Source of the DNA: Propionimicrobium sp. PCR01-08-3
Lineage (GTDB): Bacteria; Actinomycetota; Actinomycetes; Propionibacteriales; Propionibacteriaceae
Direction of reading: 5' to 3'
DNA length: 64,000 nucleotides
Assembly: GCF_030286045.1 (NCBI RefSeq)
Contig: NZ_CP127390.1
Coordinates: 1,302,001 to 1,366,000, forward strand
In this document: positions 55,183 to 60,227 of the stretch, in pieces
How positions within the stretch are numbered: the stretch's first letter is position 1
Layout: every line of letters begins with the position of its first letter
Translations under genes and position numbers: made by a program
The notes under the pieces: model-generated
Seen by the model: only the letters and a program-made list of their open reading frames with translations
The model's database searches: none
What the model was told of the DNA's origin: nothing

Positions 55183-55256
<74 letters not shown>

Positions 55257-55260
55257 CGAA

Positions 55261-56114: not shown

Positions 56115-56486
56115 ATGGCCGACAAGAAGACCGTCTTCATCGCCTTCGCGATCGAGGACGAGCGCCAGCGCGACTTCCTCAAGGGGCAGTCCCTCAGCGC
56201 CCGCGCGCCCTACGAGTTCATCGACATGTCGGTGAAGACCCCCTACGACTCCGAGTGGAAGGACCGCGTCCGCACGCGAATCCGCCGCTCGCACGGGGTC
56301 ATCGTCCTCGTCAGCAAGAACTCCCTCAACTCCTCGGGGCAGAAGTGGGAGATCCAGTGCGCGCAGGAGGAGGGCAAGCCGATCCTCGGCATCTGGGCCT
56401 ACCGCGACGACCGCACCACCCTCACGGGCGTGCGCACCGTCGCCTGGACCGACGCGAACATCGCCGGATTCATCGACTCCCTGTGA
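56115..56486 (+). CDS. TIR-domain protein (ThsB-like, DUF1863)
   Basis: A 123-residue stand-alone TIR-fold protein. It begins [22 protein letters not shown] (box 1 strand), then [55 protein letters not shown]78-E79 is at the position of the conserved TIR tryptophan/glutamate motif, so NAD+ cleavage is plausible. Such proteins act as the sensor/enzyme in Thoeris, making a cyclic ADP-ribose signal on infection. GGAGG (56105-56109) precedes ATG 56115. The caspase-like gene starts eight bases after its stop, implying one transcript and joint function. Confidence 0.82.
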
Positions 56487-56494
56487 GGTCCGGC

Positions 56495-57475
56495 ATGCAC
56501 AAGGCGCTGATCGTCGGGATCGACTACTACGAGCGGATCGGCGGGCTGCACGGTGCGGTCAACGACGCCTACAGCGTCAAGGCCGTCCTGGAGCGCCACT
56601 CCGACGGGACGCTCAACTTCTCCCAGCCCAAGCTGCTTGCCGGGACCGGACCGGACTCCGCAGTGACGCGCAGCCAGCTGCGCGAGGCCGTCGAAGAGCT
56701 GTTCCGCGACGACTCCGACGTCGCGCTGCTCTACTTCGCCGGCCACGGCTACGTGGATAGCACCGGCGGGTTCCTCTGCGCCAGCGACTGCGCGGAGGGA
56801 CACGACGGCCTGGCCCTCAGCGACGTCATGACCTTCGCCAACGCATCCCCGGCCAAGAACAAGGTCATCATCCTCGACAGCTGCCATAGCGGCATCGCTG
56901 GAGCCAGCGCCCACATCAGGCCGATCGCCGAGATCAAGGAGGGTGTCACGATCCTCACCGCGTCGACGGCCGAGCAGTACTCGATGGAGAACGACGGCTC
57001 GGGGGTGTTCACCACCCTCCTCGTCGACGCGCTCAACGGTGCCGCGGCCAACCTCGTCGGTCAGATCACCCCGGGCAGCGTCTACGCCCACATCGACCAG
57101 TCACTCGGCCCCTGGGCGCAGCGGCCGGTGTTCAAGACCAACGTGAAGACCTTCGTCTCGCTGAGGACTGCGGACGCATCCGTGGAGCTCACGGACCTCA
57201 AGCGGATCACGGAGCTGTTCTCCCACCCGGCCACGGAGCTCGCGCTCGACCCCTCCTACGAGCCCGAGCGCGCCGGGAACGAGGACGACTCCGTCCCGCC
57301 ACCGGACCCGGCCAGGAACGCCGACTTCGCCGTCCTGCAGAAGCTCGCCAGGGTGAACCTCGTGCGCCCCGTCGGGGCGGAGCACATGTGGCACGCAGCC
57401 ATGGGGTCGAAGGCGTGCGAGCTGACGGTGCTCGGCCAGCACTACTGGCGGCTCGTGGACGAGGAGCTGATCTGA
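56495..57475 (+). CDS. Caspase-like (peptidase C14) protease
   Basis: A 326-residue protein. The N-terminal caspase p20-like fold starts [29 protein letters not shown]. The catalytic dyad is His84 in [10 protein letters not shown] and Cys130 in [10 protein letters not shown], both intact. The ~100 residues after 225 ([16 protein letters not shown] to [13 protein letters not shown]) are not caspase and probably hold a sensor. In caspase-type Thoeris the TIR product activates such a protease, which then degrades cellular proteins. Its stop overlaps the next gene by one base. Confidence 0.85.
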
Positions 57476-57777
57476 TGCCGAACGCAGAACGCGCCCGCGA
57501 GGCGCTGGAGAGCCCCGAGGTGCTGGACCGCCTCGCCACGGTCGAGCACGAGCGATGGGCGCACTGGCAGCGCTACCTCCACGACCAGTGCGAGCAGCGC
57601 GACGACGGCTCCCTCGTGATCCCGGCGGACCTCGTGCGCCACTGGGAGGAGCAGATCGACACCCCCTACGCGGATCTGTCCGCCGAGGAGCAGCGCAGCG
57701 ATCAGGAACAGGTCATGAAGTACCTGCCCGTGGTGATCGAAGCGATCGGAGGCACCAGAGACACCCAGACCGCCTGA
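57475..57777 (+). CDS. RyR-like domain small protein
   Basis: A 100-residue protein. VEHERWAHWQRYLHDQCEQ and the later PYADLSAEEQRSDQEQVMKYLPVV fit the two conserved parts of the RyR (ryanodine-receptor repeat) domain: an HExW-type start and an xYxxLxExExxxDxxxV end. In bacterial conflict systems RyR domains are predicted to bind nucleotide-derived ligands. The overlapping start with the caspase gene strongly suggests it belongs to the same operon, perhaps as an added sensor or regulator. The family assignment is by pattern only. Confidence 0.6.
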   Translation: MPNAERAREALESPEVLDRLATVEHERWAHWQRYLHDQCEQRDDGSLVIPADLVRHWEEQIDTPYADLSAEEQRSDQEQVMKYLPVVIEAIGGTRDTQTA

Positions 57778-57848: not shown

Positions 57849-59045
57849 GTGGCGAACAAGAATCTGAACTCGGCCAAGGCGGCGAAGTTCGATGAGTACT
57901 ACACCGTCTGGGCCGATATTGAGCGCGAGATCAACGCCTATTTGGAGTTCGATCCTGACGTTTTCCGGGGAAAGACGGTTCTGCTGCCCTGCGACGATCC
58001 CGAGTGGAGCAACTTCACCAAGTTCTTCGCCCTGCACTTCGCGGACTTCGGGCTGAAAAAGCTCATATCCACGAGCTTCGCTCCCAACAGCAACGCGGGG
58101 GCGGCCTTCTACACCCCTACGCTCTTCGAGACCGAGGGCCCCGGTTATGACCCTGACAAGTCGCTTGAGCGTGGCCGGGTCTTTACCCTCACCGGTGCCG
58201 ACGTCTCCGGCGACGGCCGGGTCAACATCGACGACCTGCACTGGGAATACCTCGACGGCGACGGGGACTTCCGCAGCGCGGAGGTGACCGCGCTGCGCGA
58301 CGAGGCCGACTTCGTCATCACCAACCCTCCGTTCAGCCTTTTCCGGATGTTCGTCGGATGGCTCATGGAGGGTGATGTCAGGTTCTCCGTCGTCGGCAAC
58401 AGCAACGCAACGACCTACGTCGAGATCTTTCCCCTCATCCGCGAGAACAAGGTCTGGAAGGGTGCGACGGCCAATGCGACTGACATGGTGTTCGCCGTCC
58501 CCAAGGGAACGCCGCTCAAGGAGGCCGATCGTCTCAAGGCCCAACGCCTGGGTTACCCCTCAACCGACGAGCACGACTTCACCCGGCTGGGGAACTCCTG
58601 CTGGTTCACCAACATCGAGCATGGCCGACGTCACGAGCCGCTGACGATGCTCTCGATGGCCGACAACATCAAGTTCTCCAAGCACAGGGAGATCAAGGGC
58701 GTCGGCTACGAGAGGTACTACAACTTTCAGGAGGCGATCGAAGTGCCCTTCGTCGATGCCATCCCGTCCGACCACGAGGGAGTCATGGGAGTTCCCATCA
58801 CCTTCTTGGACAAGTACAACCCGGATCAGTTTGAGATCCTCGCCCACGGTGACGACATGGAGGCGCTGCGTCTGCTGGGCGTCGACACCCTAGGTCAGGA
58901 GTTCGTCAACACCTACTACGCGCAAGGCGGAACCGGCGGGAACAGCCCGGGGCACCGGCGGCTCGGACTCACCAAGCCGACGTACCACACGGCCTACAAG
59001 CGCATCCTCATCCGCCACCGCAACCCCGAGCCGAAGAAGGGCTGA
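57849..59045 (+). CDS. EcoRI-family adenine-specific DNA methyltransferase
   Basis: A 398-residue N6-adenine methyltransferase matching the EcoRI methylase family. It opens LNSAKAAKFDEYYTVWADIEREINAYLEFDPDVFRGKTVLLPCDDPEWSNFTKFF, the family-defining N-terminal part, and motif IV is NPPF (159-162) in FVITNPPFSLFRMFVGWL. VFAVPKGTPL and NSCWFTNIEHGRRHEPL are also typical. Substrate site unknown; related enzymes methylate GAATTC. No EcoRI-type endonuclease accompanies it; instead a DUF262-HNH gene follows after three bases. Confidence 0.9.
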   Translation: MANKNLNSAKAAKFDEYYTVWADIEREINAYLEFDPDVFRGKTVLLPCDDPEWSNFTKFFALHFADFGLKKLISTSFAPNSNAGAAFYTPTLFETEGPGYDPDKSLERGRVFTLTGADVSGDGRVNIDDLHWEYLDGDGDFRSAEVTALRDEADFVITNPPFSLFRMFVGWLMEGDVRFSVVGNSNATTYVEIFPLIRENKVWKGATANATDMVFAVPKGTPLKEADRLKAQRLGYPSTDEHDFTRLGNSCWFTNIEHGRRHEPLTMLSMADNIKFSKHREIKGVGYERYYNFQEAIEVPFVDAIPSDHEGVMGVPITFLDKYNPDQFEILAHGDDMEALRLLGVDTLGQEFVNTYYAQGGTGGNSPGHRRLGLTKPTYHTAYKRILIRHRNPEPKKG

Positions 59046-59048
59046 CCC

Positions 59049-60227
59049 ATGGAGACCAACCTCAAGCAGTACACGGTCGCCGAGGTCGTCAAGGGCTTCG
59101 TCTACAACGAGCTCGAAGGCAAGGGCCTGTTCGGCCTTGATGGCGACCTGGTCATCCAGCCGGAGTTCCAGCGGCACTACATCTACGGCGACGGCAAGCG
59201 CGACGTGGCGGTCATCGACTCCCTGCTGAAGGGCTACCCGCTGGGCCTGATCTACTTCGTCGACACCGGCGCGCCGTCGGGCCCGCACCTGGAGGTCCTC
59301 GACGGCCAGCAGCGCATCACGAGCGTGGGCCGCTTCGTGACCGGCAAGTTCGCCATCATCGACCCTAGCGGCTCCGAGCAGACCTTCAGCTCGCTCGACC
59401 CCGACCTGCAGGACCGGATCACCGAGGCGACCCTCCTGGTCTACGAGTGCAGCGGCACCGAGTCCGAGATCAAGGAGTGGTTCCAGACCATCAACATCGC
59501 AGGCGTCCCGCTGAACAAGCAGGAGCTGCGCAACGCGATCTACTCCGGCCCCTTCGTGACCGCAGCCAAGCAGATCTTCTCCAACAGCCAGGACGCCCGC
59601 CAGCAGAAGTGGTCGCACTTCGTCAAGGGCGACCCCAAGCGCCAGGAGGTCCTCGAAGTCGCGCTCGACTGGGTCTCGGAGCCCCAGGGCAAGAGCATCG
59701 ACGGCTACATGGCCGCGCACCGCACGGACGCCAGCGCCGCCGAGCTGGAGACCTACTTCAACACCGTCATCGACTGGATCGACGCCACCTTCACCACCGT
59801 CCACCCGTCCATGCGCGGGCTGGAGTGGGGCGACCTCTACGAGCGGTTCCACGCCACGAGCTACAAGATCGACGAGCTGAACGCCGAGCTGGCCGACCTG
59901 CTCGACGACCCGGCCGTCCACGACTCCAAGGGCGTCTACGAGTACCTGCTGGGCGGCAAGGCGGACACCCGCCTGCTCAACGTGCGCCTGTTCGACGCGC
60001 CGGTCAAGAAGGCCGCCTACAAGCGCCAGACCGACGCCGCCAAGGCCGCCGGGGTCTCGAACTGCCCGCTGTGCGCCCACGGCTCGAACGCCAACAAGAC
60101 CAAGATCTACACGCTCAAGGAGATGGAGGCCGACCACGTCGCCGCCTGGTCCAAGGGCGGGGAGTCGACGCTGGAGAACTGCGAGATGCTCTGCGTGACT
60201 CACAACCGCTCGAAGGGCAACCGCTGA
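59049..60227 (+). CDS. DUF262 domain protein with C-terminal HNH nuclease
   Basis: A 392-residue GmrSD-like protein. The DUF262 ParB-like domain has QPEFQR (37-42) and VLDGQQRIT (84-91), which bind nucleotide and drive activity. The C-terminal ~55 residues are an HNH nuclease: CPLC (339-342), ADH (361-363) and [17 protein letters not shown] with the final zinc Cys/His. It is cotranscribed with the adenine methyltransferase. A likely role is restriction of unmodified DNA, in place of a conventional endonuclease; modified-base cutting is also known in relatives. Confidence 0.82.

Follow-up and report, generated by a model that had tools for sequence, protein, structure and literature searches.

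TIR-caspase operons protect bacteria from viruses through self-destruction. Type IV Thoeris, which is of this kind, is reportedly the subject of a 2025 paper in Science by Rousset et al. According to the available part of one account (PMC12847820), the system consists of one TIR gene and one effector gene; the TIR protein makes N7-cADPR, the signal activates a caspase-like protease, and cell proteins are degraded. On the side of the attacker, RyR-domain proteins of phages break down 2' and 3' cADPR or sequester them; one of these proteins, RyDEP, is an anti-Thoeris glycosidase or sponge (PMC13232231, accessible part). Thus, TIR products are known ligands of the RyR fold. The same part of the preprint reports that mutation of RyDEP H75, W78 or D117 abolishes degradation, states that no mechanism to degrade 2' and 3' cADPR was known before, and mentions caspase solely in a reference title (PMC13232231). 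In our literature search, 'ryanodine receptor' and 'Thoeris' occurred together only in the RyDEP preprint and one review. We found no published account of a RyR-type gene in TIR-caspase operons, and an earlier mention in Rousset 2025 or Chen 2026 is possible.

Here we describe such an operon in Propionimicrobium sp. PCR01-08-3, within a 64,000-nucleotide stretch of contig NZ_CP127390.1 (the window; Table 1). A TIR gene is followed after eight bases by a gene for a caspase-like protease, which overlaps a third, small gene by one base (TGATG). These distances agree with the original prediction and suggest that the three genes probably form one transcript. Third-position G+C was 0.98 for the TIR gene, 0.94 for the caspase gene and 0.91 for the small gene, which is coding-like. 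A chance arrangement of the trio was ruled out because the same arrangement recurs in other loci.

Table 1. Features of the operon and its surroundings (positions numbered from the first base of the window)
Feature	Position	Strand	Remarks
tRNA-Pro	55183..55257	+	last 37 bases (55221-55257) repeated 12.9 kb downstream
TIR protein gene	56115..56486	+	ThsB-like, 123 aa; presumed signal maker; ATG 56115, TGA 56484-56486, GGAGG upstream
TIR Glu79	56349-56351	+	catalytic-type residue
TIR-to-caspase gap	56487-56494		8 bases
Caspase-like protease gene	56495..57475	+	326 aa; Peptidase_C14; ATG 56495, TGA 57473-57475
Caspase His84	56744-56746	+	catalytic residue
Caspase Cys130	56882-56884	+	catalytic residue
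RyR-like small protein gene	57475..57777	+	100 aa; ATG 57475, TGA 57775-57777
Small protein His25	57547-57549	+	predicted pocket residue
Small protein Trp28	57556-57558	+	predicted pocket residue
Small protein Asp76	57700-57702	+	predicted pocket residue
EcoRI-type adenine methylase	57849-59045		PF13651, 351.6 bits
GmrSD_N/HNH protein	59049-60227		PADLOC type II restriction enzyme, 304 bits
427-residue gene	66698-67981		beside right end of element; weak match to tyrosine recombinase model
Repeat of tRNA-Pro 3' end	68118-68154		37 bases, no mismatch (L109); outside window

The operon is carried by an element of ~12.9 kb in the tRNA-Pro gene, whose ends are the direct repeats. The element also holds an ArdA-like protein and MobA-like and MobC-like genes. 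Because the operon lies between the repeats together with the MobA/MobC-like genes, the defence genes are cargo of a mobilisable element. The EcoRI-type methylase beside the GmrSD_N/HNH protein is an unusual restriction pairing.

The first two proteins resemble those of type IV Thoeris. The TIR protein matched ThsB_TIR in Pfam (41.3 bits, over the cut-off) and ThsB in PADLOC (E 4.4e-10), and its Glu79, which we take to be at the position of the catalytic glutamate, was conserved in 39/39 TIRs from caspase operons. The caspase matched Peptidase_C14 (64.3 bits, over the cut-off), and its residues 1-321 matched the phage/prophage family phrog_18397 over the full length (E 8.9e-79). Its His84 and Cys130, predicted from the start to be intact, are confirmed in position and were invariant in 18/18 aligned caspases. 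The C-terminal ~50 residues were conserved as well. By sequence, the sole PDB relative of the caspase was a metacaspase, and against the NCBIfam EACC1-associated caspase model it scored 100 bits, below the cut-off of 140; NCBIfam gave no name for the TIR or the small protein. Together, protein families and catalytic residues suggest that this is indeed a TIR-caspase pair of the type IV Thoeris kind. In five loci (L014, L015, L021, L022 and L044), the caspase stands with a TIR from another subgroup.

The third protein is more divergent. Alone, it scored 13.7 bits (E 0.077) against the Pfam RyR model PF02026, whose curated cut-off is 27.4 bits; it is thus RyR-like rather than a Pfam RyR member. 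As a single query it matched no PDB chain, and PADLOC and PHROGs contained no model for it. With a profile of 26 relatives, ryanodine receptor domains were the best PDB matches (6uhi, E 1.1e-9; 4ert, 4.9e-5; 6uag, a B. thetaiotaomicron-type domain, 9.6e-5; 3nrt, 2.3e-4), and a profile of 24 relatives with more phage members gave E 2.1e-10 for 6uhi and 5.3e-5 for 3nrt. Two short colinear blocks carry these matches, namely HxxW and YxxLxxxExxxD; taken singly, the stretches give weak E-values (best block, 0.007 to 0.3), and the 6uhi score is helped by two repeats. PF02026 was matched by 20 of 24 family members at E <= 0.1, the lowest value being 2.1e-6; every other Pfam family was matched by at most three of the 24. 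One member matched the Pfam anti-Thoeris family Tad6 (E 0.079), on which our literature search found no paper. The PF02026 model matched nothing in the window's genome, and control genomes gave no match either, which leaves this negative without weight. The predicted structure of the small protein (mean pLDDT 93.1) shows four helices and a hairpin; a fold comparison, in a second look at 81 chains, listed no RyR chain, an absence that does not count against the fold. We rejected the idea that the RyR likeness is a reading error, because the profile evidence holds though the single-sequence evidence is weak. The claim of a RyR-like third protein is therefore borne out by the profile search, though not by the single sequence.

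The trio recurs well beyond the window. Among plasmids, the small protein was matched in 21 records at E 1e-5, and all 21 also had the caspase or a remnant of it (regions were viewed for 12 records and judged from match coordinates for 9). The caspase gene was directly upstream of the small gene in 18 of the 21 and directly downstream in one (L038). In L037, caspase and small gene share a strand and are separated by about 3 kb that includes an S8 peptidase and a TIR; this Sphingomonas parapaucimobilis plasmid has a one-strand run of caspase, S8 peptidase, an unknown gene, TIR and RyR-like gene. In L039, the remnant is a 60-residue caspase C-terminus that adjoins a transposase. As the gene order varies in this way, the link goes beyond a single frozen operon. 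Hosts include actinobacteria, Nodularia and plasmids of Rhizobium, Sphingomonas, Pseudomonas and Citrobacter. The one-base overlap is common to the window, L002, L008, L026, L028 and L047; other gaps range from -4 to +39 bases. It had been asked whether the same three-gene order occurs elsewhere and whether the small protein is absent from all homologous TIR-caspase loci; the order recurs and the protein is present in many, which supports a variant system.

The small gene does not accompany every caspase. By profile search it was found in 21/50 caspase loci, a share that is overstated because 11 plasmid regions entered via the small gene (all 11 were also caspase matches). The 50 loci leave out a cut caspase (L025), the same operon as L027 (L031), remnants (L003, L039), repeats (L049, L050) and split genes (L055, L056). 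Less biased shares came from the reverse direction. Among caspase plasmids, 20/52 carried the small gene and 32/52 had no RyR match (18 of the latter were counted from the scan alone). The caspase scan of genome contigs found a RyR-like gene in 7/19 loci, three of the seven (L008, L009 and L017) being copies or near copies and L007 being cut after 32 residues. Across 396 actinobacterial genomes, the small-protein profile gave four matches: the trio in two genomes, a small gene next to a remnant of the caspase in a third (L003) and one with no caspase within 1.5 kb in the fourth (L004). Seven of these genomes bear the caspase; a RyR-like gene occurs in 2 of the 7, a SLOG-like gene in three and neither in one, and the seventh, which has a split caspase, was left out of the neighbour census. 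Two further matches with E near 1e-3 (L005 and L006) were spurious by eye, as they lie in frames antisense to other genes.

Some of these loci have other features. Tetrasphaera australiensis Ben110 has two whole-operon copies in one assembly (L009 and L017), whose proteins show the same identities to those of the window. The RyR-bearing caspase loci L032, L038 and L045 have a metallophosphoesterase gene downstream, identified by Pfam Metallophos for L038 only, by annotation for L045 and by eye for L032. On a Rhizobium sophoriradicis plasmid (L030), the operon stands beside genes annotated as Mov34/MPN/PAD-1 and E2 ligase fold, a neighbourhood that resembles a defence operon of the ubiquitin-like kind.

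In type I Thoeris, SLOG serves as the sensor of cADPR. A gene that we call SLOG-like (GITGHQ...GGTxDxV) stands in for the RyR-like gene next to the caspase in 8/50 caspase loci by profile search (L018, L052, L053, L054, L095, L097, L099 and L100), and both genes together were found in 0/50. This exclusion has a hypergeometric probability of 0.008 (0.011 with copies collapsed), a value that ignores kinship and sampling bias. The name SLOG is weakly founded: L099 scored 18.4 bits against PF06908, whose cut-off is 27.7, and is named DUF1273 in RefSeq; L018, L097 and L100 had no match among the Pfam SLOG models, and the SLOG-like proteins matched nothing in the PDB. Without recourse to Pfam, five of the eight were identified by their mutual similarity of 33-46%. 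If the assignment is right, the same caspase has one or the other of two unrelated nucleotide-binding folds beside it, and this would point to the ADP-ribose signal as what they have in common.

This alternation is also what might be expected of a second receptor or co-activator, which would bind the signal and help to switch the caspase on or deliver the signal to it. The tight translational coupling to the caspase in the six operons with a one-base overlap points the same way, as does L015, where the RyR-like gene is retained despite the swapped TIR. However, the 32 caspase plasmids without a RyR match indicate that the caspase can work without this protein and that the RyR-like gene is dispensable to the core system, and type IV Thoeris, in the part of the account available, has one effector gene beside the TIR gene (PMC12847820). 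We consider a receptor role unlikely.

Relatives of the small protein also occur in phages. In viral contig loci, 31/32 relatives had no caspase within the fetched flanks, and the same was true of 9/10 relatives in phage records; three of the phage loci scanned have terminase or Gam genes nearby. These relatives (L033-L036, L048 and L061-L089) belong to a phage protein family that is widespread, mostly lacks a name and shows the motifs HxxWxxW, RW and YxxLxxxExxSD. It is possible that they are anti-Thoeris proteins.

Mapped onto a tree of 48 caspases, the RyR label requires 7 changes, of which well supported branches force at least 5; shuffled labels needed 15.2 changes on average, and 0/500 shuffles were as low as 7. 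(This tree carries the label 'none' for L097 and L100 and 'TIR' for L095, though a SLOG-like gene was found there later; the RyR label is unaffected.) The RyR gene is thus clustered on the caspase tree, yet has been repeatedly gained or lost. On a tree of 42 small proteins, the distinction between operon and phage needs 4 changes, at least 3 of them forced, and a single clade of all operon copies was rejected (p-AU 0.022). The Nodularia RyR copy clusters with phage proteins (99/97). Inside the main operon clade (96/91) lie three copies from phages (L033, L035 and L036). Branches are long in this tree, that of L015 among them, and single placements are unsure. The pattern implies exchange of the small gene between phages and defence operons.

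One might take the small gene for a captured phage inhibitor, that is, an anti-Thoeris RyR gene that came from a phage or a rival element, was inserted behind the caspase and silences the system for the benefit of the element. Its close relatives in phages without a caspase, the phage genes beside some of them, the Nodularia grouping and the rejection of one operon clade are all consistent with capture. However, long retention with caspases in actinobacteria, proteobacteria and a cyanobacterium, together with conserved coupling, suggests a benefit to the system, and the placement of the long L015 branch is unsure; we regard capture of this kind as quite unlikely. The occurrence of the same family in phages would also be expected of a decoy or guard that mimics a phage target, senses sponges or other products of phages and then releases the system. 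This idea was part of the original prediction; it requires an additional sensing step, and we find it the least probable of the roles considered.

The conservation of single residues bears on what the small protein may bind. In Pfam profile coordinates, residues 15-87 of the window protein correspond to 19-82 and RyDEP residues 72-117 to 26-71. From these coordinates and by eye, His25, Trp28 and Asp76 are the likely equivalents of RyDEP H75, W78 and D117. Among 42 relatives, His25 and Trp28 were conserved in 42/42 and Asp76 in 41/42. At the equivalent of RyDEP His100, which contacts phosphate, His was found in 0/42 and Arg or Lys in 33/42. Direct sequence similarity between the small protein and RyDEP was not significant (2342 of 4344 scored shuffles scored as high). 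The three pocket residues are kept in phage and operon copies alike, which points to ligand binding and argues against another role, in which the protein is a partner or substrate of the caspase (a chaperone, or an inhibitor cleaved on activation) and the RyR fold is just a scaffold. A small helical protein, confidently modelled, whose gene overlaps that of the caspase by one base could suit such a partner, but the protein also occurs in phages without any caspase. We think this role very unlikely.

Based on these results, we propose a model in which the operon is type IV Thoeris in a three-gene variant: the third protein binds the TIR signal, perhaps cleaves it, and so sets a threshold or acts as an off-switch. 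We hold this reading tentatively, as one that is plausible and yet slightly more apt to be wrong than right. By analogy with published type IV Thoeris, infection would trigger the TIR protein, which would make a cyclic ADP-ribose signal from NAD+; activated by this signal, the caspase would destroy cell proteins and stop the phage. The third protein, a divergent RyR domain, may bind and perhaps hydrolyse the signal in its His25/Trp28/Asp76 pocket. By lowering or ending the signal, it would keep the cell alive in the face of stray TIR activity. What the sequences show is the trio itself, its recurrence, the RyR relatedness by profile and the kept pocket residues, whereas signal binding, damping and defence are our deductions. 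Among the functions considered, a signal sink or off-switch, which the original prediction did not list, fits best. Counted in favour of damping are the co-occurrence in 21/21 plasmid records, the clustering on the caspase tree, the RyR profile, the conserved pocket and the SLOG-like alternation. Against it count the weak single-sequence RyR match, the insignificant similarity to RyDEP, the missing His100, the 32/52 caspase plasmids with no RyR match, and the difference between the RyDEP substrates, 2' and 3' cADPR, and the N7-cADPR of type IV Thoeris.

A broader proposal is that host TIR-caspase immunity owns a RyR-family cADPR sink or hydrolase, drawn from the anti-Thoeris gene pool of phages and swapped between attacker and defender, for which a SLOG-like protein substitutes elsewhere. 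We consider this possible but rather doubtful. What is at stake is how hosts end TIR-made signals: the small protein, which phages have too and which is coupled here to a lethal caspase, is a candidate built-in brake. If so, a widespread unannotated phage protein family would gain a function.

In comparison with known proteins and systems, the small protein shares the HxxW and YxxLxxxExxxD blocks, by profile, with the bacterial RyR domains 3nrt and 6uag ('putative ryanodine receptor'), but its family has its own segment between the blocks, with Trp57 and Gln60. By profile it belongs to the same superfamily as RyDEP and keeps the pocket His, Trp and Asp. It differs in that RyDEP is encoded by the attacker whereas the small protein sits inside a defence operon, in the absence of His100 from its family, and in the insignificant direct similarity; moreover, RyDEP acts on 2' and 3' cADPR, whereas the signal of this operon is probably N7-cADPR. 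As in type IV Thoeris, in the available parts of both accounts (PMC12847820, PMC13373217), TIR and caspase-like protease genes form one operon, and the catalytic residues of both are intact in the window. The operon differs by its RyR-like third gene, and the likeness was drawn from protein families and catalytic residues. Last, the third protein may play the part that ring nucleases have in type III CRISPR. The likeness, to the extent that the accessible part of one source describes them (PMC13148439), lies in a standing enzyme or sink, proposed here, that ends a nucleotide immune signal, and in the fact that viruses and hosts both carry such proteins, as with the RyR-like family. Ring nucleases act on another signal with another fold, and the role of the RyR-like protein is our proposal. 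If it is true, Thoeris would be joined to the ring-nuclease logic of CRISPR, and the tolerance of a lethal protease would be explained.
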